This document shows positions 7,453 to 20,566 of a stretch of DNA of 64,000 nt, piece after piece; position 1 is the first letter of the stretch; every line of letters starts with the position of its first letter. Source of the stretch: Hydrogenimonas cancrithermarum (GTDB lineage: Bacteria > Campylobacterota > Campylobacteria > Campylobacterales > Hydrogenimonadaceae). The position numbers were made by a program, and so were the translations under genes. Where the stretch lies: the NCBI RefSeq assembly GCF_030296055.1, contig NZ_AP027370.1:1-64000 (forward strand), read 5' to 3'. Under the pieces are notes generated by a model. The model saw nothing but the letters and a program-made list of their open reading frames with translations. It was not told the DNA's origin and ran no database searches.

Positions 7453-7462
7453 GGCGGTGACG

Positions 7463-9454
7463 ATGAAAAAGAGCCTCCTGCTTTTATTGACGTTTACGTT
7501 TCTGTTCGCAGCTTCGACATTTTGGGAGACGGTGATCGAAATCGAGAAAGAGTTCTATACTTCTCGGGAAAGCCGGGTTTTCGCTCTGTCGACGGAAACG
7601 GAGGGCAACGCAACGGCCGCTGGCCAAAGCGTAGGCGAAACGGTGGCTCCTGAACATCCTCCGGGGAAAGAGGCGGACGATCTTTCCTCCGTGGCGGATG
7701 AAAAGATAAGAAAATTCAATATTCTGCTTTCGGTTTTGAAAGAGCGCCCCTATGAGGTGAACAATCCGAACAACCCTTTCTACAATCCCGCCAGTTCCGA
7801 ACAGCTGCGTACCAAACTCAAAACGCGAATCAGCGTCAACAAGCAGTACAATTACGACCTGGCGGTGGTTCGTGACGAAATCGCGCTGCTGGAGCTCGAT
7901 GCGAGAAAACATATTTACGGTTTTTTTATCCATCTCGCCGACAGATGGACCGAAATGTCCAATGAAGAACTCCTGGAATTTTTCAAAAAAAGTTCCCAAT
8001 GGCTTCGCTCGATCAATGTCGGAAAATATACCAGGCTCTACAGAGAAGCGAAAGAAAACGACGACAAGATTTCAAAGAAGATCGTCGAGAATTACGAAAA
8101 TCTCCGCATGCACTACCACTTTTTCAGCGAATTCCTGGAATATGTCATGTCCAACCCTTCGATGTTTCGCTACCGTTCACTGACTTCTCTTTTCAAACTC
8201 AACGAGATTATCGATCGGATCAATTCGGTCGAGCTCTTCGCCAAGATCAATACCGATCTACGACACATCAATACAGATATGGGACGGCTGTTGATCTTTT
8301 TGCTCATCATGGTCGTCGCATGGGGATCCTCCTACCTTTTCTACTACAAACTCTACGCTTTTCTCAAGCGCCTGATCGAAGCGCAAAAACATGAAACCGA
8401 CGAACTTCTCCTCGCAAATCTGAACAATATCAGAAGGCCTCTTTTCATCCTTGTCATCACTTTCGGTTTTCGATTGGGCCTGGAGGTTCTGTTCCATCCG
8501 GCACCGCTGCCGGAGAAGCTCGCGATCTTCTTTTTCGCGATCGTCGTCGCGACGGTCGCCTATATTCTGATCCTTATCGTCGACAGTCTCTTTTTCGACT
8601 ATATGGTCAAAAAGGGGGAGTTGAAAAACAAGCAGCTTCGCCAGGAGTTGATCAACCTCATTCTCTCCATTATCAAAGTGACGGTCGTCATCATCGCCAT
8701 ATCGATACTTCTCGTGCGGCTTGGCGTCAATATCACGGGGCTCGTTGCATCACTTGGAATCGGTGGTCTTGCGGTGGCTCTGGCGGCGCAGAATACGCTC
8801 AGCAACTTTTTCGGTCTCCTCAAGATCATTTTCGACAACTCCTTCTCCCAAGGTGACTGGATCGAGACCAAAGATACGGAAGGAACGGTCGTGGAGATCG
8901 GTTTTATCAGTACGATGATCCGAACGTTCGACAATGCCCTCATCACGGTTCCGAACGCGACACTCGCCAACACGCCTCTCAAAAACTGGAGCAAGCGCAC
9001 CGTGGGGCGCCGCATCAAAATGCACGTGGGAGTGACCTACGGTTCCAAACGCGAGGATGTCATGAAAGCGATCGAAGAGATCGAACGGATGCTGATGAAC
9101 CACCCCGGCATCGCGACACCGAAAAAGATTGACAGGCAGCTGTTGACAAGCAGATCACGGCGGGAGAAAAAACTGGTCTCGATGGAAGACAAATATGGCG
9201 TGAAGACGACGCTTCTCGTCTATCTCGACAAATTTTCCGACTCATCGATCAATATATTGATCTACTGCTTCAGCAAAAGTGTCATCTGGCAGGAGTGGCT
9301 GGATGTGAAGCAGGATGTCCTTTTGAAAATATGGGAGATTCTCGAGAGTTACAACCTCGACTTCGCCTTTCCGTCTGAGTCGCTCTATTTCGATCCGGAG
9401 AATATTAAAGAGAGTTTCAAACCTTTCGCAAAAACTCCAAAAATCCCCGAATGA
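7463..9454 (+). CDS. Mechanosensitive ion channel, MscS family, large form
   Basis: This 663-residue inner-membrane protein has a signal-like N-terminus (KKSLLLLLTFTFLFAAS) and a long mainly helical periplasmic region to about residue 270. Several membrane segments follow. The MscS pore helix and beta domain lie around residues 430-480 (LGIGGLAVALAAQNTLSNFF, then FSQGDWIE). It should open on membrane tension to release solutes after hypo-osmotic shock. The ATG at 7463 is preferred to the GTG at 7457 because GAGG is correctly spaced. Its 3' end overlaps the convergent hyfI-like gene by 38 bases. Confidence 0.93.
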   Translation: MKKSLLLLLTFTFLFAASTFWETVIEIEKEFYTSRESRVFALSTETEGNATAAGQSVGETVAPEHPPGKEADDLSSVADEKIRKFNILLSVLKERPYEVNNPNNPFYNPASSEQLRTKLKTRISVNKQYNYDLAVVRDEIALLELDARKHIYGFFIHLADRWTEMSNEELLEFFKKSSQWLRSINVGKYTRLYREAKENDDKISKKIVENYENLRMHYHFFSEFLEYVMSNPSMFRYRSLTSLFKLNEIIDRINSVELFAKINTDLRHINTDMGRLLIFLLIMVVAWGSSYLFYYKLYAFLKRLIEAQKHETDELLLANLNNIRRPLFILVITFGFRLGLEVLFHPAPLPEKLAIFFFAIVVATVAYILILIVDSLFFDYMVKKGELKNKQLRQELINLILSIIKVTVVIIAISILLVRLGVNITGLVASLGIGGLAVALAAQNTLSNFFGLLKIIFDNSFSQGDWIETKDTEGTVVEIGFISTMIRTFDNALITVPNATLANTPLKNWSKRTVGRRIKMHVGVTYGSKREDVMKAIEEIERMLMNHPGIATPKKIDRQLLTSRSRREKKLVSMEDKYGVKTTLLVYLDKFSDSSINILIYCFSKSVIWQEWLDVKQDVLLKIWEILESYNLDFAFPSESLYFDPENIKESFKPFAKTPKIPE

Positions 9455-9923
9455 TCCGCTCCGGACTCGGTGGACAGCCGGAAATGTGGTGGGCGACGGG
9501 AAGATGTTCGGCTGCGGGGCCCTTGATCGCGAAGGTCGTTTGAAAGGGCGTCTGCATCGCCGGACAGTCACCAAGTGTGACGATCCACTTCGGTTCCGGG
9601 ATCTGCTTCCACGCATCCATCACATGATGGTACATGTTGAATGTCAACACACCGCTAAGCAGCATGACGTCGGCATGACGCGGACTGGCGACGAAATGGA
9701 TACCCAGCCGCTCCAGATCGTAGTAGGGATTGCTCAGCGCGTTGCACTCCGCTTCGCATGCGTTGCAGCTCCCGCTGTCGACCATCCGGATCGCAAGCGA
9801 TCCGGCGAACCTCTTTTTCACTTCATCTTTGATCTGTTGACGAATTTCCGCCATTTCGACATCGAACTCCGGATGCTCCGTGAGCATCCCCGTTTTGATT
9901 CGTTTTTTCCAAAATCGTATCAT
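9417..9923 (-). CDS. hyfI: Hyf/Ehr complex small subunit, NuoB-like (HyfI-type)
   Basis: This 168-residue iron-sulfur subunit belongs to the NuoB/HycG/HyfI family. Cysteines in GSCNACEAEC (near residues 53-62), LGDCPA (near 118) and SGCPPSPE (near 149) supply the C-x2-C, C and C ligands of the proximal 4Fe-4S cluster. It is the last gene of the operon and begins about 45 bases after the large subunit. Two ATG codons are adjacent; I use the second because its distance to the weak GGA site is better. The cluster ligands are intact although the large subunit has lost its nickel site, so electrons may still pass through it. Confidence 0.85.
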   Translation of the reverse strand: MIRFWKKRIKTGMLTEHPEFDVEMAEIRQQIKDEVKKRFAGSLAIRMVDSGSCNACEAECNALSNPYYDLERLGIHFVASPRHADVMLLSGVLTFNMYHHVMDAWKQIPEPKWIVTLGDCPAMQTPFQTTFAIKGPAAEHLPVAHHISGCPPSPERIIRGFLEFLRKV

Positions 9924-9958
9924 CATTCCAATCCAACTTTTAGTTTTAACTTTTCACT

Positions 9959-9973
9959 TGATGCAATGCATCA
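9959..9973. repeat. 15-base palindrome at the end of the hyfG-like gene
   Basis: TGATGCA-A-TGCATCA is a perfect 7+1+7 palindrome. Its right end is the stop codon of the large-subunit gene (minus strand) and it lies in the spacer before the hyfI-like gene. It could be an mRNA stabiliser, a processing site or a protein site. No T-run follows. Confidence 0.5.
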
Positions 9974-11338
9974 CAGGTCGCTCCCCGCATAGCTCAGATC
10001 GCAGCTTTTGTTGATGAGCGGGAAGTCGGCGATGATGTTGCCGGGCATCATCAGGTGCAGTGCCTGCCAGTTGACGAAACTGGAGTCACGCACGAAGAAG
10101 CGCTCGATTTTCCCCTCTTTGATGTCGATGGCCATGAAGAGCTCACCGAGGGAACTTTCAGTATAGGCCGTATAACTGCCATCTTTCGGTGTGGGCAGGT
10201 CGACAGAAACCGGTTCGACATCGAGGAAATTGCGCATCATGGCGATGCTGTTTCGAACCTCTTCGAGGCGTATTTTGAAGCGGGCGCCGACGTCGCCGTT
10301 GGTTTGAGTCGCCATTTTGAAGCCGTGATCGATGTAGAACGGATCGAGCCGACGGTCGACGGCGATGCCGGAAGCGCGGGCGACGACACCGACACAGTCG
10401 TATTTGAGTGCTTTTTGAGGCAACAGGCGACCGGTCGTGTCGAAGCGGTCCCAGAGCGAGGGGATATCGATAATCCAGTCGGTAAACCATGCGATCTCAT
10501 TTTCGAGATAATCGAGCCACTTTTTTATCGCTTTGGTATCGATTGGTGACGTTTCGAACGTGACAGCGCCGAAACCAAAACGATGGCCGGTCAGTTCGGC
10601 CATTTTGCGGCGCGCCTCTTCGGCCAGTTTGGAGCAGAAAGCCAGTGCGGCACCGAAGCCCGCGTCGTTGGGGATAAACCCAAGATCGGTCAGATGGTGA
10701 ATCACCCGCTCGAGCTCCAGCAGCAGGGCGTGACGTTTTTTAATGGGCTCGGGCAGTTCGATACCTGCAGCCTGCGCCGTAATGTCGCGCCACGCGATCT
10801 GATACGCCACGCTTTCATTGCCGCTGATGCGCTCGATGATCGGCTTGGCCTCTTCCAGCGTCATCTCTTCGACCATCTTTTCGATCGCACGGTATTTGTA
10901 GAAATGGCGCACCTCCTGGTGAAGAATCTCTTCGCCCGCCTGTGAAAAGTGGAAATGGCCTGGCTCGATGATGCCGGCGTGGATTGGGCCGACGGCCACT
11001 TCGAAGACACCGTCACCGCCGATTGCTTCATATTTGTAGGGGGTGTAGTCTGCGAAATCGACGACGGTTTCGCTGAAATCCTTTCGCATCGGGTGGATAT
11101 CTTTGGGGAAGCGCTCTTGGTGCACGAGTGGGCGATTGTCAAAAGCGCCATCGATTCTGATGCCGAAATCGTCACGCATTTTGCGTTCGAACCAGATGGC
11201 GGCAGGGTGTTTCGTCGCGATCGTCTTGATGACGGGCTCATCTTTGCCCAGACGTACCGTTTCGGTCATTCCGTCATAAACGGTGACCACTTCGAAGGCC
11301 TCGCCGAGATCTTTGGCGTAGCGGGCGACGAGTCTCAT
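9971..11338 (-). CDS. hyfG: Hyf/Ehr complex large subunit without nickel ligands (HyfG-type)
   Basis: This 455-residue protein fuses a NuoC-like N-terminal part (about residues 1-115) to a NuoD/hydrogenase large-subunit part, as HyfG and HycE do. In true group 4 hydrogenases the first nickel motif reads RxCGxCxxxH. Here the matching place is ERISGNESVAYQ, with no cysteines and no histidine. The second motif, normally DPCxxC near the C-terminus, is NKSCDLSYAGSDL with a single cysteine. No hydrogen chemistry is expected, which places it in the Ehr family between hydrogenases and complex I. The start overlaps the hyfF-like stop in an ATGA. Confidence 0.88.
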   Translation of the reverse strand: MRLVARYAKDLGEAFEVVTVYDGMTETVRLGKDEPVIKTIATKHPAAIWFERKMRDDFGIRIDGAFDNRPLVHQERFPKDIHPMRKDFSETVVDFADYTPYKYEAIGGDGVFEVAVGPIHAGIIEPGHFHFSQAGEEILHQEVRHFYKYRAIEKMVEEMTLEEAKPIIERISGNESVAYQIAWRDITAQAAGIELPEPIKKRHALLLELERVIHHLTDLGFIPNDAGFGAALAFCSKLAEEARRKMAELTGHRFGFGAVTFETSPIDTKAIKKWLDYLENEIAWFTDWIIDIPSLWDRFDTTGRLLPQKALKYDCVGVVARASGIAVDRRLDPFYIDHGFKMATQTNGDVGARFKIRLEEVRNSIAMMRNFLDVEPVSVDLPTPKDGSYTAYTESSLGELFMAIDIKEGKIERFFVRDSSFVNWQALHLMMPGNIIADFPLINKSCDLSYAGSDL

Positions 11339-12750
11339 GCGACACTCCTTAAAAAGGCCATCGATGGCGGGGTGATGAGTGCCAGCAGCGCGACGGCGAA
11401 GATGACGAGGGCGAAGAGCTCGCTGCTGTGAACTTTCTTCTCGATTGTCTCACCCTCGTATTTCATCGACTGGTAGATGGCTACGAAACGATAGAAGATG
11501 ACCGAAAGCAGAATCAGAAGCAGCAGCATCGCCCCGATCATCGCCAACAGATTGTGGCTCTGCTTGGCCATATCGATCATGGCACCGAAGCCGTAGAGTT
11601 CAGAGAAGAACATCGGGCTCGGCGGCAGGGAGATGATGGCCAGCAGAAAGAGCGAGACCAGAAAACCAAAGATCGCACCGCCTTTGCCTTTGTAGCCACG
11701 CAGCGCCCCGGCGATGTGGTAGCGCCCCTGCGATTCGAGCACACCGGTCGAAAGAAACAGGGCCGGTTTCAAAAAGGCGTGGGCGCCGAAGTGCAGGAGT
11801 GCGGCAAAGGTGCCGCCGCTGACCCAGAAGAGTGCGATCAGCGCCATATGCTCGATGCCGGAGAGAGAAAAGAGGCGCATGAAATCTTTGGCTCGGTAGA
11901 TGAGAAACGCGACGATGAAGATGGTCAGCAACGCATAGATGAAGATGAAGCCGAAAAGGTGGGATCGGTTGACGACCTCGGCGATCTGGCTGAAACGGAA
12001 GAAACCGACCATGACGGCACTCTCCAGAATGCCGCTGAAAAGTGCGGCAACGGGGTAGAAAGAGGCGCGCTCGATGTGGGCGATCCAGAGGTTCATCGGG
12101 AAAAAGCCCATTTTGACGAACATCCCGACCGTGGCGATCGCGAAGCCCATCTCGAAAAGAAACGGCGAGGGGATATCTTTGGCGCGGCCAAGCAGTGCGT
12201 CGAAAAGCATCGCATCTTCGCCCAGCACCGGTTTGGCCGAAGCGTAGATCAAAATGATGCCAAAGAGCACCAAAGAGATGGCGATGGCGCCGACGATCAT
12301 GTAGTTCCACGCCTCTTTGTGGGCGGCGGGAGTGTGGTTGGTTTTGATCATGTAGACAGTCGAGAGCGTCGCCATCTCCAGACCGATCCAGTAGATTCCC
12401 ATATGGTTGGCCAGGATTGAGAAGATGAGGCCGATCCAAAAAAGGGCGAAGAAGCGGTAGAACCGGCGGTAGGCGGTTTCGGTTACTTCGACGTGTTTGT
12501 CCAGCGTCAAAAGCGCCAGGGTCACGCCGATACCGACGATGGAGGAGATGAGCAGGATGTAGGTGTCCAGATCGTCGGCGACGAGGTAGTCGCCCCAGAG
12601 ACGGTAGGGTTTGGCGAGGCGGAAAAGTTCGACGATCGGAATCAGGATCGCGAACGATGTAACCGGAAGAACTTTGCGCGCGTTGGGTGTATGGATGAAA
12701 CTGACGCCGAACATGACGAGGGCCGGAAGCAGCAGGATCGAGAGCATCAT
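11335..12750 (-). CDS. hyfF: Hyf/Ehr complex antiporter-like membrane subunit (HyfF-type, NuoN/L/M family)
   Basis: This 471-residue hydrophobic protein with about 14 predicted membrane segments belongs to the Mrp-antiporter/NuoL-M-N family. It contains the conserved glutamate segment WIGLEMATLSTVYMIK near residue 120 and a lysine/histidine-bearing LLHFGAHAFLKPALFLSTGVLE near residues 315-336. The family moves protons or sodium across the inner membrane. Two ATG codons stand in tandem at the start, overlapping the hyfE-like gene. It is the second antiporter-type subunit of this operon beside the hyfB-like one. Confidence 0.9.
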   Translation of the reverse strand: MMLSILLLPALVMFGVSFIHTPNARKVLPVTSFAILIPIVELFRLAKPYRLWGDYLVADDLDTYILLISSIVGIGVTLALLTLDKHVEVTETAYRRFYRFFALFWIGLIFSILANHMGIYWIGLEMATLSTVYMIKTNHTPAAHKEAWNYMIVGAIAISLVLFGIILIYASAKPVLGEDAMLFDALLGRAKDIPSPFLFEMGFAIATVGMFVKMGFFPMNLWIAHIERASFYPVAALFSGILESAVMVGFFRFSQIAEVVNRSHLFGFIFIYALLTIFIVAFLIYRAKDFMRLFSLSGIEHMALIALFWVSGGTFAALLHFGAHAFLKPALFLSTGVLESQGRYHIAGALRGYKGKGGAIFGFLVSLFLLAIISLPPSPMFFSELYGFGAMIDMAKQSHNLLAMIGAMLLLLILLSVIFYRFVAIYQSMKYEGETIEKKVHSSELFALVIFAVALLALITPPSMAFLRSVA

Positions 12751-13340
12751 GCACGCACCTCCTCATGGCGAAGCAGCAGATTGACGACGACGATCGCCAT
12801 CAGCAGGTCGAAGAAGATCCCCAGCTCCACCAGCATCGGCATCCCCTCGGTCGCGGTGGTGCCGAGTAGAAAGAGGGCGTTTTCCATCGCAAGGAAGCCG
12901 ACGATTTTCGGAGCGATGTTGCTGTGTTCCATCATTAAAAGCAGGGCCAGAAAGAGTGAGGAGATGCTGATGGCGACATAGTTGGCGTTGCCCTCGACCA
13001 TATGGCTGATCGGTTCGGCGAGGTAGAAGGTGAACACCAGAATCGCCGGGACCAGCATGATGGCGTACTGGATCTTGATATTGGGCGGAATCTGGCGCAC
13101 GAGACGAAAACGCTGGCTCAGCCGTTTGAGAAAAAACGGGATGCCGACCGCTTTGACGATCAGGGTGATGACGCCGCTGACGATCATCGCCGCATCATCC
13201 AGCTCACTGCCGATGAAAAGCGCCAGAAGGCCCAACGTCAGGGAGTTGATCGAGTACCAGAATAGCAGGCGGTAGAGTCGCGTCGTGAAGAGCGCGGTGA
13301 TGAGCGTGGCGAGAAAGAGGCCGATAAGAAAATCTGTCAT
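12747..13340 (-). CDS. hyfE: Hyf/Ehr complex membrane subunit (HyfE-type, NuoK-like)
   Basis: This 197-residue integral membrane protein has about six hydrophobic segments and the length and position of HyfE. It resembles NuoK in its latter part (AISISSLFLALLLMMEHSNIAPKIVGFLAMENALFLLG), where the glutamate in GFLAMENALFLL matches the conserved membrane glutamate of the family. It follows the hyfC-like gene by three bases and overlaps the hyfF-like gene by four, so the operon is tightly coupled. It probably contributes to the proton path between the membrane arm subunits. Confidence 0.85.
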   Translation of the reverse strand: MTDFLIGLFLATLITALFTTRLYRLLFWYSINSLTLGLLALFIGSELDDAAMIVSGVITLIVKAVGIPFFLKRLSQRFRLVRQIPPNIKIQYAIMLVPAILVFTFYLAEPISHMVEGNANYVAISISSLFLALLLMMEHSNIAPKIVGFLAMENALFLLGTTATEGMPMLVELGIFFDLLMAIVVVNLLLRHEEVRA

Positions 13341-13343
13341 GGT

Positions 13344-14264
13344 CTATGCCCCCAGAACGTAGAATGTAATCAGCGACAAAAAAGCGAAGACGATCGCGAT
13401 GCCGAGTAGGTTGGGTACCTTGAAAAGGCGCAGTTTGGCCGTGTTGACTTCGATCAGCGCGACGGCGGCGGCGATAAGAAAGAGTTTGCCCACAAAAACG
13501 AGCAGTGCCAGCGGCGCGGAGAGGCCCGGTCCAAACGGCATGAAGAGCGAGGCGAAGAGCGACGCGAAGATGACGAATTTGACCGACGCCGCCGTTTCGA
13601 CGATGGCGAGATAGACGCCGGTGATGTCGAGAATCATCGCTTCGTGCACCATCGTCAGTTCCAGGTGCGTTTCGGGATTGTCGACCGGAATGCGGCCGTT
13701 TTCGGCGATCAGCAGAATGAAGAAGCTGATGGCGGCAAAAAGGTAGCTGGCCATATGCTCTTTGGGGAAGTGGTGCACCAGATTGACGCCTGCCTGCCCG
13801 ACGCCGAGGTCGCCGGCCATCATCGAGACGCTAAAAACGGTCAGTACCATCGCCGGCTCGACGAGGGCGGAGATGAAGGCTTCGCGGCTCGAACCCATCC
13901 CGCCGAAACTGCTGGCCGAATCGAGCCCGAGCAGCATCAGAAAAAAGGCCGAAAGCGCCAAAAGACCGGTAATCGTAAAGGCGTCGACGAAACTGACGTA
14001 GAAAGCGCCGCCGGCCGCGGGCGGAAGGAAAAAGATCGTCACCATCAGTGGTGAAAGGACCAGAAACGGGGCGACGCGCGTCATTTGGCTCGCCTCTTCG
14101 CTGACGATCGTCTCTTTGGCCATCAGTTTGGCGAAGGTGCGGTACCCTTGCAGCAGTGGCAATGGGCGTTTGAAGAGCAGGCGCATCTTCAGCGCTTTGA
14201 TAAACGTGAGCAGGAGCGGCGCGATGAGCAATAAAATAGCGATAGTGAAAAGATACAATATCAT
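13344..14264 (-). CDS. hyfC: Hyf/Ehr complex membrane subunit (HyfC-type, NuoH-like)
   Basis: This 306-residue polytopic membrane protein is of the NuoH/HyfC family, the subunit that joins the soluble redox arm to the membrane arm. It has eight or so hydrophobic segments, with the conserved cytoplasmic loop region QGYRTFAKLMAKE near residues 39-51 and ENGRIPVDNPETHLELTMVHEA near 178-199. The latter is the family's acidic loop facing the large subunit. The start overlaps the hyfB-like stop (ATGA). Its intact acidic loop suggests the coupling machinery is kept although the nickel site is gone. Confidence 0.92.
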   Translation of the reverse strand: MILYLFTIAILLLIAPLLLTFIKALKMRLLFKRPLPLLQGYRTFAKLMAKETIVSEEASQMTRVAPFLVLSPLMVTIFFLPPAAGGAFYVSFVDAFTITGLLALSAFFLMLLGLDSASSFGGMGSSREAFISALVEPAMVLTVFSVSMMAGDLGVGQAGVNLVHHFPKEHMASYLFAAISFFILLIAENGRIPVDNPETHLELTMVHEAMILDITGVYLAIVETAASVKFVIFASLFASLFMPFGPGLSAPLALLVFVGKLFLIAAAVALIEVNTAKLRLFKVPNLLGIAIVFAFLSLITFYVLGA

Positions 14265-16144
14265 TTTTTATCTCCTATGATCAGAACCTTGATCGAGATG
14301 ATCATGACAACTGACTCCAGTGCGAAAGTGGCCCAGCTGAATGCGTGCGCGAAGATGCGGAAGCTGAAAAGCACCAGCAGCATCAGGTTGAAGATCATCG
14401 CGGCGTAGCGGGTCTGTTCGAAATGGGCGAGGCGGTAGACCCAATAGCTTATGCCGTTGGCAAGGCGTGCGGCATTGGTGTAGAGCGCGGTTTCGAAGAG
14501 CGGTTTGACATGCACGGCGTAGTGCGAGCGGTCGAATTTGGTGGCGTGGCCGGCAAGGGTCCTTTTTTCGAAATGTTCGTTGGGGCGGTAGAGCCAGTTG
14601 AAAAAGCGGCGGATCGGACCGGCGAAACCGGTGGCGGAGTACTGCGTGCGCGCGCCGGTGCGGTAACCGCAGGCCCAGGTGCGGTGGATGCGCTCTTTGA
14701 CTCTCAAAGCTTTGTAACCGTACCACAATGCGCCGGTGACGCCGACGAGTGCCAAAAGCAGCACCAACGGCGAAACGACACCGCCATGGACGGCGACCGA
14801 ATGGATACGCCAGACACCGTCCGGGAAGATTGTGTCGTAGACACTGGCGTGGCCCAGCGAAAAGAGAGCCGCATCGAAATGGCTGATGTACCAGGGCGCA
14901 AAGAGCATCAGTGAAAAGACGACGCCAGCCATCAGCAGCATCCCCGTCTGCATCCTTTTGTTCACTTCTTTGGCGTGTTTGGCATTGGCGCTGCGGTGCA
15001 GACCCAGGAAGGTGATGCCGTAGGCTTTGACGAAACAGGCGATGGCCAGACCGCCAGTGAGTGCCAGGGCGAAGACGGCAAAGGGGATGGCCAGTTTGAG
15101 CGACATGTTGTCGATATGGCTGGAGCCCAGCATCGACTGGAAGATCATCCATTCGCTCAAAAAACCGTTGGTCGGCGGCAGGGCCGAAATGGAGACGGAG
15201 GCGAGCAGAAAGGTCAGCGCCGTGATCGGCATCGACTTGACAAGTCCGCCGTAGCTTTCTATGTTTTTCGTGTGCGTTTCATGCAGCACACTGCCCGCGC
15301 CCATGAAAAGGAGCGATTTGAAACTCATATGGTTGAACGTGTGAAAGAGTGCGGCGATGAAGGCGAAGGAGCTGAGCACCTTCAGGCCCAGCGCGTCGAA
15401 AATCATCCCCATCCCGAAGCCGATCAGGATGATACCGATATTTTCGATGGAGTGATTGGCCAGCAGCGCCTTGATGTCGTGTTCGCTGAGGGCGTAGAGC
15501 ACGCCGATCAGCGACGAAAGCGCCCCGATGACCAGAATCAACACGCCCCATTCGAGCGGCCAGGGATAGAGCACGTCAAAAAGAAAGCGGAATATCCCGT
15601 AGATCGCCACTTTGAGCATGACGCCGCTCATCAGTGCCGAGACGGGGCTGGGCGCCGCCGGGTGGGCGTAAGGCAGCCAGACATGTAGCGGCACGGCGCC
15701 GGCCTTGCTCAAAAATCCCAGAATCAGGAAAAAAAAGAGAAGCGTCGGGTAGGCGAAGGCGTGGGCGATCCCTCGCATCTGGGCAAATCCCATCTCCAGG
15801 TCGCCATCGGTGACGATGAGAAAAAAGAGCAACAAAAAGACGAAACCGAAATGGGTCATGAAAAAGTAGAAGCGCGCGGCATCGATCGTACGTTTCTCTT
15901 TGACTTCGGTCAAAATCAGCTGCCAGCTGGTTAGACTCATCAACTCCCAAAAGAACAGGAACATCATGGCGTTGCCGGCCGTGACGACACCGAGCATCGA
16001 GAGGATAAAGGCGAAGTAGTGGATAAGGTAGTGCCATTTACGTTCGATATGTGGCAGATAACCGAACGAGTAAAAGAGGTTGGGCACACTTCCCAACACG
16101 ATAAGTGCGACGAAAACGAGCGAGAGGGTGTCAAACTGGAACAT
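14261..16144 (-). CDS. hyfB: Hyf/Ehr complex antiporter-like membrane subunit (HyfB-type)
   Basis: This 627-residue protein has about 15-16 membrane segments and is the first gene of the operon. It shows the NuoL/M core with FFWELMSLTSWQLIL near residues 64-78 and LPYAHPAAPSPVSALMSGVMLKVAIYGIFRF near 156-186, where the glutamate and lysine of the proton channel are present. The C-terminal region carries the HyfB mark TWACGYRTGARTQYSATGFAGP. There is no HyfA, HyfD or HyfH-like ferredoxin gene next to it, so the operon is a reduced Hyf set (B, C, E, F, G, I). Confidence 0.92.
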   Translation of the reverse strand: MFQFDTLSLVFVALIVLGSVPNLFYSFGYLPHIERKWHYLIHYFAFILSMLGVVTAGNAMMFLFFWELMSLTSWQLILTEVKEKRTIDAARFYFFMTHFGFVFLLLFFLIVTDGDLEMGFAQMRGIAHAFAYPTLLFFFLILGFLSKAGAVPLHVWLPYAHPAAPSPVSALMSGVMLKVAIYGIFRFLFDVLYPWPLEWGVLILVIGALSSLIGVLYALSEHDIKALLANHSIENIGIILIGFGMGMIFDALGLKVLSSFAFIAALFHTFNHMSFKSLLFMGAGSVLHETHTKNIESYGGLVKSMPITALTFLLASVSISALPPTNGFLSEWMIFQSMLGSSHIDNMSLKLAIPFAVFALALTGGLAIACFVKAYGITFLGLHRSANAKHAKEVNKRMQTGMLLMAGVVFSLMLFAPWYISHFDAALFSLGHASVYDTIFPDGVWRIHSVAVHGGVVSPLVLLLALVGVTGALWYGYKALRVKERIHRTWACGYRTGARTQYSATGFAGPIRRFFNWLYRPNEHFEKRTLAGHATKFDRSHYAVHVKPLFETALYTNAARLANGISYWVYRLAHFEQTRYAAMIFNLMLLVLFSFRIFAHAFSWATFALESVVMIISIKVLIIGDKK

Positions 16145-16388
16145 GAAACAATTCTCCGAACACGAAAATACACGTTCGGCGGCGGATGCCGTCGGACAAA
16201 ACGGGCTGGCAAGTTTTCAGATTTCTGAAACTTAGAGAGTCCTGAAGTTTTGAGCCGATTATACAGGAAAAGTGCTTATGAAACACTTATAATTATTTGG
16301 CCGGATTATAAAAACAATTGTTTGAATTTCTTCAACATTTACAAAAATCGCGTTATAATTGAATATTCCTATTCCGCAGGGCCGCCAT
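16145..16388. promoter_or_regulatory. Divergent promoter region between the Ehr operon and clc
   Basis: This 244-base spacer is AT-rich on its right side. TATAAT at 16354-16359 (plus) lies 29 bases before the preferred clc start. On the minus strand a TATAAT at 16263-16258 would give the hyfB-like gene a leader of about 110 bases. A further TATAAT lies at 16288-16293 (plus). AAGTG (16270-16274) and CACTT (16284-16288) form a small inverted repeat just upstream of the minus -10 box, a possible operator. I see no gene in the spacer. Confidence 0.55.
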
Positions 16389-17816
16389 ATGATTCTCAAG
16401 CATATTACCGAACAGACCGCCATCTTTTTCAGTGTCACCAAATGGGTTGTACTCTCTTCTGTCGTCGGAATCATGATTGGCACGATTGTCACCCTTTTTC
16501 TAAAAATTTTGCAAATCGCGGAGACGAGTCGTTCGGAAATTCCGTTTCATTACTATTACATTTTGCCTTTCGCGCTTTTTTTGACCGTCTGGGCAGTGCG
16601 GACCTTTTCGCCCAGTGCCGAAGGCCACGGGACGGAGAAAGTGATCGAGGCGGTACACAAAAACCATGGAAAGATCAATATAGCAGTCATACCCGTCAAG
16701 CTTTTCGCGACCGTCATGACGATTTTTGCAGGCGGTTCAGTCGGAAAGGAAGGTCCTGGTGCACAGATCGGGGCGGGTGCGGCCTCCTGGCTTTCGGATA
16801 TACTCAAGTTCACCCCCGAAGATCGTAAAAAACTTGTCATCTGCGGAATCAGCGCCGGTTTCGCTTCAGTCTTCGGCACTCCGATCGCCGGAGCGATTTT
16901 CGGTGTGGAGGTGCTCATTATCGGGGTTATTCTCTACGATGTGTTGCTCCCATCGTTCATCGCCGGATTCGCCGCATTTACGACGGCCCAGTTTCTTGGC
17001 ATCGAGTACACCTATTTCGATATCCGTTTCTATCAGAACGTTTCGCTCGACATTCCACTGATTCTTCAGGTCGTGTTGGCTGGTCTTTTTTTTGGATTCG
17101 TCTCCGACATTGTCGTGACTTCGGTTTCGTTCAGTGCGAAAATGATTAAAAAAATCCCTTATCACCCATATGTCATCGCATTTTTTGGCGGTCTGCTTTT
17201 GGTCGCGCTGGCCTATCTCTTCGGCGACAGATACCTGGGGCTCGGACTCGAGACGATCAAAGATACATTGAATCCTGATCCCTATTTTTCCAGAGATCTT
17301 CCTTGGTACGCTTTTTTGCTGAAGACACTTTTCACCTCCATCACGCTCGGCGTGGGCGGAAGCGGTGGGATTATTACACCGATTTTCTACATCGGGGCGA
17401 CCAGCGGTCATATGTTCGGGCAGCTGATCGGCGGAGAACACATCGCGCTTTTCGCGGCACTGGGTTTCGTCAGCGTATTGGCAGGTGCCACCAACGCACC
17501 GATCGCCGCCACGATCATGGCGGTCGAGCTCTTCGGTCTTGAAATTGCTCATTACGCGGCGCTCAGTGCCGTAATAAGTTTTTTGATCACGGGGCACCGA
17601 AGCGTTTTCCCGTCGCAGATTCTGGCGATGAAGAAGTCGGAGATGCTGGAAGTTAAAGTAGGAGAAGTGATCGAGCATGCCGTCGTCGATTTGGAAGAGA
17701 AGGAGGTTGGCCGTATCCGGGATATCAGGGAACGGCTTCGTGTACGGCGAGAGCGCCTTAAAGAGCAGAAAAAACGGAAAATCTCCGCTATCAAGCAGGA
17801 GAAGAAGGAGTCCTGA
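16389..17816 (+). CDS. ClC-family chloride channel/transporter
   Basis: This 475-residue protein has ten or more membrane segments. It carries the ClC selectivity motifs in slightly divergent form: GSVGKEGPGAQIGAG near residues 118-132 (the gating glutamate of KEGP is present) and GGSGGIITPIFYIGA near 326-340. SPSAEGHGTEKVIEAV stands where GSGIP occurs in other ClC proteins. A charged cytoplasmic tail of about 60 residues with coiled-coil character ends the protein. The ATG at 16389 is chosen over the TTG at 16359, because the latter overlaps the -10 box and GCAGGG precedes the ATG. trkA follows after one base, so anion and potassium transport are linked. Confidence 0.9.
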   Translation: MILKHITEQTAIFFSVTKWVVLSSVVGIMIGTIVTLFLKILQIAETSRSEIPFHYYYILPFALFLTVWAVRTFSPSAEGHGTEKVIEAVHKNHGKINIAVIPVKLFATVMTIFAGGSVGKEGPGAQIGAGAASWLSDILKFTPEDRKKLVICGISAGFASVFGTPIAGAIFGVEVLIIGVILYDVLLPSFIAGFAAFTTAQFLGIEYTYFDIRFYQNVSLDIPLILQVVLAGLFFGFVSDIVVTSVSFSAKMIKKIPYHPYVIAFFGGLLLVALAYLFGDRYLGLGLETIKDTLNPDPYFSRDLPWYAFLLKTLFTSITLGVGGSGGIITPIFYIGATSGHMFGQLIGGEHIALFAALGFVSVLAGATNAPIAATIMAVELFGLEIAHYAALSAVISFLITGHRSVFPSQILAMKKSEMLEVKVGEVIEHAVVDLEEKEVGRIRDIRERLRVRRERLKEQKKRKISAIKQEKKES

Positions 17817-17817
17817 T

Positions 17818-19134
17818 ATGGATATCATAATCGCCGGTGCGGGCCGTGTTGGTTTCAATCTGGCCCGTACCCTTTCTATCGGACACAACGTTACGGTCAT
17901 CGACCGGAATGCCGAAGCGCTGCAGAGGCTCCAGGAGAGCCTGGACATTCTCCCTCTTCACGGGGATATCGAAGATCCTCTGACCTATCGCAAACTCATC
18001 GACAAGGAGGTCCATCTTTTCATCGCGGTCACCGACATGGATGAGGCCAATCTCATATCCACGCTCATCGTCGACGATTCGATTCGTGTGGATCGCAAAT
18101 TCATTCGCCTCCGCAATACCTTTTTCGCCAAAAGCTCCATTAGGGAGAAGCTCGGAGTCAATGAAGCGATTTTTCCGATGCAGATCACTTCGAAGACGGT
18201 GGAGACGCTGTTGCAGTATCCAAAAGCCAACAATGTAAAAACTTTCAAGTACACCAACCTCAAACTTGTCTCCGTTCGAGCGTCTGGATTGTCCGAACCG
18301 CTGTCGCTTCATCCTGAAGGATTCGCCATCGTAGGCATCGAGAGAGAGAAAGATTTTTTCATACCTTCCATGGATACGCCGATCGAACCCGGCGACCTTG
18401 TCTATCTTTTCGGAAACGAGGAGAGCATACGGCAGCTTTGCGGGCGGCTCGAATCGGAATCTCCCCGAACCATTTCTCGGTGTGTCATTTTCGGGGCGGG
18501 AGACCTCGGCGTCGCTATAGCACATACGCTGATCGAAAATGGCAAAGAGGTCAAGCTGGTCGAAAAAGATGTGAAGCTGTGCGAAGCGGCCGATGAGAAG
18601 CTTGAAGGCGAAGCCACCGCAATTAGCTGCAAGTATGGAACCGGTACCATTTTCGAAGAGGAGGGGCTCGAAAATGCCGATTTGATGATCGCGGCGACCG
18701 ACAACGACGAATACAATATCATCAAATGCCTCGAAGCACGGGAACACGGCATTCGAAAAGTGGTCGCCATCAACAACGAAATGGAGTATTACAACCTGAT
18801 GCACACACTTGGTATCGTTGTCGTCCGTGGACCGAAAATGAGTGCCTACAATGCAATTTTGGAGAGTATCTACTCCAGTGGCGTCGTGATGGAGAGGAAA
18901 TTCTGCGGCGGAAAAGCGTCGATCTTTCTTCGGAAAATATTCCCAAACTCCAAACTTATTGACAAAAGAGTCAAACCGTTCAAACGACAGAAAGCGGGAC
19001 TCGTTTTCCTCGTACGCGAAGGGGAGCTTTCTCGCTTCGACGAAACAGTTACGATGCGGGAAGGCGACGTGATTATCGGTTTCGTCGACGAAGAGTACGC
19101 ATCGGCCATGAAAGTGTGGATCTATGGACTTTAA
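17818..19134 (+). CDS. trkA: Trk potassium uptake regulatory subunit TrkA
   Basis: TrkA is the cytoplasmic nucleotide-binding gate of the TrkH potassium channel. The 438-residue protein has two RCK modules. The first NAD-binding loop is IIAGAGRVGFNLA (residues 4-16), and the second is VIFGAGDLGVAIAHTL near residue 225. Each is followed by a TrkA-C domain. The length is standard. The start is the ATG at 17818 with AAGGAG upstream; an earlier in-frame start lies inside clc and is rejected. Its end overlaps trkH by 11 bases. Confidence 0.95.
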   Translation: MDIIIAGAGRVGFNLARTLSIGHNVTVIDRNAEALQRLQESLDILPLHGDIEDPLTYRKLIDKEVHLFIAVTDMDEANLISTLIVDDSIRVDRKFIRLRNTFFAKSSIREKLGVNEAIFPMQITSKTVETLLQYPKANNVKTFKYTNLKLVSVRASGLSEPLSLHPEGFAIVGIEREKDFFIPSMDTPIEPGDLVYLFGNEESIRQLCGRLESESPRTISRCVIFGAGDLGVAIAHTLIENGKEVKLVEKDVKLCEAADEKLEGEATAISCKYGTGTIFEEEGLENADLMIAATDNDEYNIIKCLEAREHGIRKVVAINNEMEYYNLMHTLGIVVVRGPKMSAYNAILESIYSSGVVMERKFCGGKASIFLRKIFPNSKLIDKRVKPFKRQKAGLVFLVREGELSRFDETVTMREGDVIIGFVDEEYASAMKVWIYGL

Positions 19135-20566
19135 AAGCATTTTCAAAGTGTTGAGCCTGATAGGAGTGACGCTCGCGCTCTTTTTTGCGCTGGATGTGGC
19201 CATAGGGATTATTTACGGGGAGATCGCCGATGCGTTGGCCTTTTTCGACCTGCTCTTTCTCTTCGTTAACGGTCTCATATGGTTCGCTCTGCGATCCCAC
19301 CCCGTGCATTTGAAAATAAAAGAGAGCATCCTGACGGTTAACATTCTATGGATTTTCATCGGCATCGCCGGTGCCGTACCGCTCTACCTCTACACACCCA
19401 TAACATTCGCATCGGCTTTTTTCGAAGCGATAAGCGGATTCACGACGACGGGCGCGACGATCTATAGCGATATCGAACATCTGCCCCGGATGATACTCTT
19501 TCACAGAAGTCTTATGCACTGGCTCGGAGGTATGGGGATCATCGTACTGGGGGTGGGACTCCTTTCCATTATCAATCCCACAGGCAGTCTGAGCCTCTTC
19601 AAAGCTGAAGCGACGGGAATACAGATCGAGAAACTGACACCAAAGATCAAAGATACGGCACTGAGCCTTTGGGCTATCTATCTCTTTCTCACACTCTCCG
19701 ATACGCTTTTGCTGAAAGGTTTCGGGATGAACTGGTTCGATGCGATCAATCACGCATTCTCGACAATATCGACCGGTGGATTTTCTACCAAAAACAGTTC
19801 ACTCGGATATTTTCAAAGTGACGGAATCGTCTGGGTCACGACACTCTTCATGCTCCTCTCTGGCATCAACTTTCTCGCACACCTGAAGCTCTTCTACCGG
19901 GACATTAGCGGTTACGGAAGCGAAGAGGTTCTCGGATATCTGAAAGTCTTCTTTATCCTGTCACTGCTACTGAGTTTCATCCATACCGAAATGGGAGGCG
20001 ATGCTTTCTACCATGCGGTGACACACTCCTTTTTCACGATCGCATCGGTCATGACGACCACCGGGTTCGCGACGACCGATTATGGAACATGGAGCCACCT
20101 CGCGATCGTGGTGATTTTTCTGGCGATGCTGGTGGGAGGCAATGCCGGTTCGACGGCCGGTGGTATCAAAGTGATTCGCTATCTCATCATCTTCAAGACA
20201 TTGAGGTCGGAACTCAAACGGATCGTGCATCCAAATGCCGTCATTTCCGTTTTTGTCGATGGTGTCAAACTCAGAGAAAGAGTCCTCTCATCGACATTCG
20301 GATTCTTCTTCCTTTTCGTTCTGACCGTTGTCGCGATGGCACTTTTCATGTATGCGAGGGGATCGGATGCGATGACGGCAATTTCAGGTGCCTTGGCGAT
20401 CGTAGGTAACATCGGCCCGGGGTTTTCGGCGGTCGGGCCCGCCGAAAATTTCGGTTTTTTCCAGGATGTAGACAAAATCGTTCTTTCGATGGGTATGATC
20501 ATAGGACGTCTGGAGTGTTATACTGTTTTCGTTCTCTTTACCGCATCGTTTTGGAAAAAATTTTAG
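19124..20566 (+). CDS. trkH: Trk potassium uptake channel subunit TrkH
   Basis: This 480-residue inner-membrane potassium channel subunit has the four filter-like repeats of the family. They include SGFTTTGATIYSD near residues 104-116, STISTGGFSTKNSS near 215-228, TTTGFATTDYG near 312-322 and GNIGPGFSAVGP near 426-437. The C-terminus MIIGRLECYTVF matches the conserved GRLE motif. It is translationally coupled to trkA by an 11-base overlap. The stop codon lies in the first copy of an 11-base tandem repeat. Confidence 0.95.
   Translation: MDFKSIFKVLSLIGVTLALFFALDVAIGIIYGEIADALAFFDLLFLFVNGLIWFALRSHPVHLKIKESILTVNILWIFIGIAGAVPLYLYTPITFASAFFEAISGFTTTGATIYSDIEHLPRMILFHRSLMHWLGGMGIIVLGVGLLSIINPTGSLSLFKAEATGIQIEKLTPKIKDTALSLWAIYLFLTLSDTLLLKGFGMNWFDAINHAFSTISTGGFSTKNSSLGYFQSDGIVWVTTLFMLLSGINFLAHLKLFYRDISGYGSEEVLGYLKVFFILSLLLSFIHTEMGGDAFYHAVTHSFFTIASVMTTTGFATTDYGTWSHLAIVVIFLAMLVGGNAGSTAGGIKVIRYLIIFKTLRSELKRIVHPNAVISVFVDGVKLRERVLSSTFGFFFLFVLTVVAMALFMYARGSDAMTAISGALAIVGNIGPGFSAVGPAENFGFFQDVDKIVLSMGMIIGRLECYTVFVLFTASFWKKF

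Follow-up and report, generated by a model that had tools for sequence, protein, structure and literature searches.

The six-gene cluster at positions 9417-16144 (minus strand) of the window, by which we mean the whole 64,000-nucleotide stretch of the Hydrogenimonas cancrithermarum genome that was analysed, almost certainly encodes an energy-converting hydrogenase-related (Ehr) complex. The Ehr family is already known, and the complex is a further member of it. The preliminary description of this DNA had pointed to the Ehr family, a placement borne out by the large-subunit tree, the missing nickel ligands and the operon; its suggestion of an ion pump "of new type" is not established, Ehr being already on record from Geobacter, Nitrospira, Mycobacterium tuberculosis, CPR bacteria and others. 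Published accounts report that the nickel ligands of Ehr are missing and that its function is unknown (PMC6349859, PMC12342949, PMC10284858, PMC10432482), and the Ehr of G. sulfurreducens is expressed at a level that changes with the electron donor (PMC7894505).

The operon and its relatives

The subunit families were assigned with Pfam and NCBIfam profiles, and the features are as follows (residue numbers are those of the respective subunit).

14261-16144, minus strand: HyfB-like antiporter subunit, 627 aa (HyfB profile; begins at profile position 76)
13344-14264, minus strand: HyfC/NuoH-like membrane subunit, 306 aa (PF00146)
12747-13340, minus strand: HyfE-like membrane subunit, 197 aa (NF008556, E=4e-14, below the cut-off)
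11335-12750, minus strand: HyfF-like antiporter subunit, 471 aa (PF00361)
9971-11338, minus strand: EhrL/HyfG-like large subunit, 455 aa, with a truncated 30-kDa domain and a 49-kDa domain
10811-10831, minus strand: RISGNES motif of the large subunit in place of RxCGxC, residues 170-176 (column counts)
9974-10027, minus strand: DFPLINKSCDLSYAGSDL tail of the large subunit, residues 438-455, in place of DPCxxC and without a C-terminal extension
9417-9926, minus strand: EhrS/HyfI-like 20-kDa small subunit, 169 aa (PF01058, E=3e-22)
9873-9926, minus strand: HyfH-type N-terminal anchor of the small subunit (MMIRFWKKRIKTGMLTEH), remaining after loss of the ferredoxin domain (alignment with HyfH and fused [NiFe] small subunits)
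9744-9767, minus strand: CNACEAEC, with cluster ligands C54 and C57 and the Campylobacterota-specific C61
9564-9566, minus strand: cluster ligand C121
9474-9476, minus strand: cluster ligand C151 (GCPP)
16359-17816, plus strand: ClC chloride channel/antiporter, a divergent neighbour outside the complex (PF00654, E=4e-77)

The genes of the operon are tightly packed in the order hyfB-C-E-F-G-I, mostly with 4-base overlaps, and the hyfB-, C-, E-, F-, G- and I-like set named in the preliminary description was recovered as six ORFs of the expected families. Its claim of a complete membrane arm holds for the B, C, E and F subunits, all of which are present, with the refinement that the antiporter-like subunits number two (B and F). 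The E. coli Hyf complex has a third antiporter-like subunit, HyfD, and also HyfA, neither of which is found in the window operon. The operon contains no other membrane genes and encodes both the large and the small subunit, so that Hyf/Ech-like membrane and peripheral subunits lie together in one operon, as they do in Ehr. The N-terminus of the window HyfB is shorter than in other HyfB proteins; in three other Campylobacterota Ehr operons (L036, L116, L119) the HyfB gene is duplicated in tandem. Proton-path residues are conserved in HyfB (E67, K147, K178, H268, H272, K276, E331) and HyfF (E125, K213, H320, H324, K328, E384), as are charged residues in HyfC (E136, E188, R191, D195, E202, E208) and HyfE (K63, E153, E172, D178), and by this comparison the complex-I proton path of the membrane arm is intact.

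In the large-subunit tree the Campylobacterota sequences form one clade (SH-aLRT 100) within an Ehr clade (SH-aLRT 97) that also holds the Nitrospira moscoviensis Ehr together with archaeal (AOA-type) and CPR-type Ehr. The sister of the Ehr clade is a group from the Bacillota with the motifs RxCGxC and ELCYACLDR, that is, [NiFe] relatives; a Desulfotomaculum member is likewise known to retain its nickel cysteines (PMC3569383). A scan of named genomes returned more than 580 relatives among the matches listed, and Ehr is by that measure widespread, with the qualification that the set was ordered by similarity to the window, that shares across phyla are not estimates, and that many loci come from metagenome bins with possibly mistaken names, such as those called Methanosarcina and Bordetella. 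Certain other Campylobacterota carry a second large subunit of Ehr type, highly divergent (L026, L027; LAGDTTIGHS, SDFPLCNKSFNLSYCGFDL).

Orthologues with at least 54% identity across essentially the whole length occur in 22 of 298 Campylobacterota genomes, the window genome included, and are spread over eight families. The six genes stay together in nearly all of these loci; in one genome an insertion separates the small subunit. An alignment of 19 large subunits shows S172-G173 and the greater part of DFPLxNKSxDLSYAGxDL to be invariant and the remainder nearly so, and the altered motifs hold over a range of 54-73% identity. Such invariance at the very site that departs from the hydrogenases shows strong purifying selection, and decay toward a pseudogene is rejected.

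The former nickel site and the remaining cluster

E. coli HycE (7z0s) aligns to residues 25-454 of the large subunit (E=3e-47), with RISGNES at the site of the HycE RVCGIC and SCDLSYAGSD at that of SLDPCYSCTD. The four nickel-ligand columns have changed from C to S at 172, C to E at 175, C to S at 449 and C to G at 452, and the CxxC...CxxC ligands that mark the group 4 [NiFe] enzymes are gone. S172, G173, E175 and S176 are kept in all 17 Campylobacterota large subunits compared (C172 and C175 in the [NiFe] relatives), and the same 17 of 17 have S449 and G452. The single C-terminal cysteine, C446, stands in a column that varies between C and F among orthologues and is for this reason taken as a non-ligand position. 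The reading of SGNES for CGIC with one C-terminal cysteine was thus correct, and the comparison of HycE and NuoD columns that had been proposed as a check left none of the four ligand cysteines in place. What remains of the pocket includes the hydrogenase-type E125. Column comparison defines an Ehr-specific pocket of S172, D174, S449 and G452, in which D174 is an addition; the Campylobacterota mostly have N174 there, together with E175. An AlphaFold model of the large subunit (pLDDT 82) has E. coli HycE as its top PDB match (TM 0.85); its confidence is low in the tail (residues 449-455) and in region 101-144, so we draw no geometry from those parts.

The preliminary description had further held that a second complete large subunit pairing with this operon would speak against it. 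Besides the large subunit itself the genome encodes a single PF00346 protein, NuoD, and such a partner is thereby excluded. The PF00374 matches that were considered as candidates belong to a separate hydrogenase locus near C1:801000-805000.

The small subunit has the four cluster cysteines ascribed to it earlier (C54, C57, C121 and C151), which are ligands for one [4Fe-4S] cluster and are retained in 33 of 33 Campylobacterota loci, and the additional C61. HyfH had been reported absent, and this too was upheld: the CxxCxxCxxx[CP] ferredoxin motif occurs in none of the six frames of the 64-kb window, by which a hidden HyfH there is ruled out, and only an anchor peptide (KKRIKTGMLTE), still fused to HyfI, is left where the two-cluster domain is missing. 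Most [NiFe] members from Bacillota have a small subunit made by fusion of the HyfH ferredoxin subunit to HyfI; some small subunits of Acidobacteriota, Verrucomicrobiota and archaea have a partly degraded ferredoxin domain, and the alignment places the deletion between TGxxTE and the cluster motif. The missing HyfH is explained by the loss of the two-cluster domain from such a fused HyfH-HyfI protein. No electron donor is encoded beside the operon, in agreement with the preliminary description.

What might drive the membrane arm

Our best overall explanation, in which our confidence is evenly divided, is an Ehr complex that moves protons and is driven from the former nickel pocket, with redox as the likeliest drive in this clade. 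Protons would be moved via HyfB, HyfF and HyfC, and the driver would be an event in the pocket (E125, S172, N174, E175 and S449). A soluble ferredoxin or flavodoxin might dock at the former place of HyfH and reduce the single cluster, which would hand the electron on to a small organic molecule (menaquinone, perhaps) as acceptor in a chamber formed by the large subunit, the small subunit and HyfC. In a redox-linked pump the disappearance of the ferredoxin subunit favours direct feeding by a soluble carrier, and the known architecture of complex I and FHL suggests that removal of the ferredoxin domain would expose a docking face of the cluster. That this route from soluble carrier through cluster to organic acceptor operates in the window's clade we put forward tentatively, at somewhat less than an even prospect. 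The cluster cysteines in every Campylobacterota locus make a redox role there reasonable; against it, the complex-I quinone residues H38 and Y87 are missing from the large subunit, and the operon has no conserved oxidoreductase or carrier gene beside it. The earlier proposal of a redox-driven ion pump is therefore plausible for the Campylobacterota and not established for the family, in which relatives have lost the cysteines.

In the small subunits of Dehalococcoidia, Altiarchaeota and CPR the residue at C54 is D, T or S, that at C121 is D, G or E and that at C151 is N, D or S; C57 is replaced as well, although it survives in some CPR and Chloroflexota. Of 137 distinct small subunits, a few of them NuoB-like paralogues, 28 are without any of the four cysteines and a further nine retain a single one. 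All four are replaced in L050, L056, L074, L182-L184, L186-L198 and L206-L212, with six-gene operons whole where checked, and four (in some cases three) in the CPR loci L065, L066, L071, L077, L097, L161-L167 and L172-L178. The large subunits examined in these lineages carry the Ehr motif, and no gene of the operon is missing; cysteine-less small subunits also occur in single-contig, apparently complete Dehalococcoidia genomes, and four CPR genomes tested contain no other small-subunit homologue. As far as sequences can tell, no recognisable redox cofactor is left in these complexes. The tree hints at two independent cluster losses, which we do not claim because an AU test is compatible with a single origin (p=0.27). 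Since the cluster was lost and the pocket kept, electrons from the cluster are not needed for the role of the pocket in those relatives; redox drive cannot be assumed family-wide, and the family may do without redox chemistry altogether. The one-cluster clade and its cluster-less relatives together offer a direct test of whether a complex-I-type arm works without electrons. Further Ehr-like small subunits without the proximal-cluster cysteines were seen in L179, which retains a one-cluster ferredoxin domain, and in L199-L203, which are cysteine-rich elsewhere.

A substantial, though lesser, possibility is accordingly that Ehr translocates ions without redox chemistry, or works like an antiporter, in the service of pH, K+ or volume homeostasis; the cluster of the window complex would then be structural or a redox switch, and the former nickel pocket, with its two carboxylates, a relay for protons or cations. 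The complexes of Dehalococcoidia, Altiarchaeota and CPR, which have kept six genes, pocket and proton path without nickel or cluster ligands, fit this reading, as do the retained E125 and the new D174 (N174 with E175 in the window). Genes for ion transport are also found nearby: an MscS-type channel at 7457-9454 of the window has a 3' end that overlaps hyfI, and ClC, TrkA and TrkH occupy 16359-20566 on the other flank; of the 33 loci, 5 have ClC as a neighbour and 3 have TrkA/TrkH; and several CPR Ehr operons come after ATP-synthase genes (epsilon subunit confirmed), among them L065, L077, L180 and L185, which have the order I-B-C-E-F-G directly downstream. These neighbours fit ion homeostasis, but they involve a minority of loci and were noticed post hoc. 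In the Campylobacterota neighbours vary by genus, and no conserved partner gene was found beside the operon. The cluster cysteines of all Campylobacterota and the lack of Mrp-specific small subunits in the operon count against a non-redox complex. We consider it less likely than not, yet a real possibility, that Ehr complexes in general, that of the window included, are at heart not redox pumps, the hydrogenase module having been rebuilt as a non-redox proton or cation relay that drives or gates the membrane arm; most lineages would keep the cluster as a switch, and Dehalococcoidia, Altiarchaeota and CPR would have given up all recognisable cofactors.

The remaining explanations fare worse. 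A polysulfide or sulfane-sulfur reductase like the archaeal MBS, with the small-subunit cluster as catalyst, would suit a sulfur-metabolising host clade (the nearest named relatives among the matches listed are Sulfurovum and Sulfurimonas bins), the absence of nickel and the extra C61 in the cluster loop; it is nevertheless improbable, because MBS retains C85 and C385 of MbsL and a three-cysteine cluster (PMC7684303), whereas the window large subunit is without both cysteines and the CxxC spacing is kept. The Geobacter Ehr has been viewed as a non-functional relic (PMC13194489), and the lost nickel ligands would agree with decay; conservation opposes this so strongly, through the invariant altered motifs, six intact overlapping ORFs and an operon maintained in nearly all loci of eight families, that we hold it to be very improbable here. 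A working [NiFe] hydrogenase is more improbable still. The fold and operon resemble Hyc/Hyf, and for the Sulfurimonas autotrophica orthologue a group IV hydrogenase, "Hyc", has been assigned and acid resistance by H2 evolution proposed (PMC4584964, PMC7952632); all four nickel ligands are missing, however, and neither the window genome nor the genome G129 (L010/L119), taken as that of S. autotrophica OK10, has a second group-4-type large subunit. As NuoD and the Ehr orthologue are the only PF00346 proteins in G129, the published "Hyc" is very probably the nickel-free Ehr complex, a link drawn from correspondence of the genomes and gene count and not from a locus tag. If so, it appears that it cannot be a [NiFe] hydrogenase, and its published annotation would thereby be corrected.

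Comparison with known systems

An Mrp antiporter would lack 49/20-kDa subunits and possess small subunits specific to Mrp, and the operon differs on both counts. MBS is, like the window complex, a complex-I relative without a nickel site, but it keeps two large-subunit cysteines and the ferredoxin-like MbsN, none of which the window complex has; the two cysteines and shortened proximal-cluster loop that characterise MBS (PMC7684303) are absent. With respiratory complex I the window complex shares the 49-kDa, 20-kDa, NuoH and antiporter subunits. It is without the NADH module, keeps CxxC and the hydrogenase-type E125, and in comparison with NuoD has I124-E125 around His38 and G173 in the column of Tyr87.

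The Hyf and Hyc hydrogenases of formate hydrogenlyase have the fold (TM 0.85 to HycE) and the B-C-E-F-G-I set in common with the window complex, which lacks their nickel ligands, HyfH, and any adjacent formate dehydrogenase or maturation genes; of the two-cluster HyfH typical of Hyf (hydrogenase 4), only the anchor peptide is found. The six-gene [NiFe] operons of Bacillota, such as Desru_3260-3265 of D. ruminis (PMC3569383), share the operon and the DFPLINKS tail and differ by their CGxC and LCYAC nickel ligands and, mostly, by a small subunit that contains a ferredoxin domain. The Ehr complexes of Geobacter (GSU0739-45), Nitrospira moscoviensis, M. tuberculosis (Rv0081-87), ammonia-oxidising archaea and CPR have, like the window complex, Hyf/Ech-like subunits without nickel ligands. 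From these the Campylobacterota are set apart as a long-stem clade (2.08 substitutions per site) with N174-E175 for D174-S/T175, the extra C61 in the small subunit, and a shorter HyfB and 30-kDa domain.
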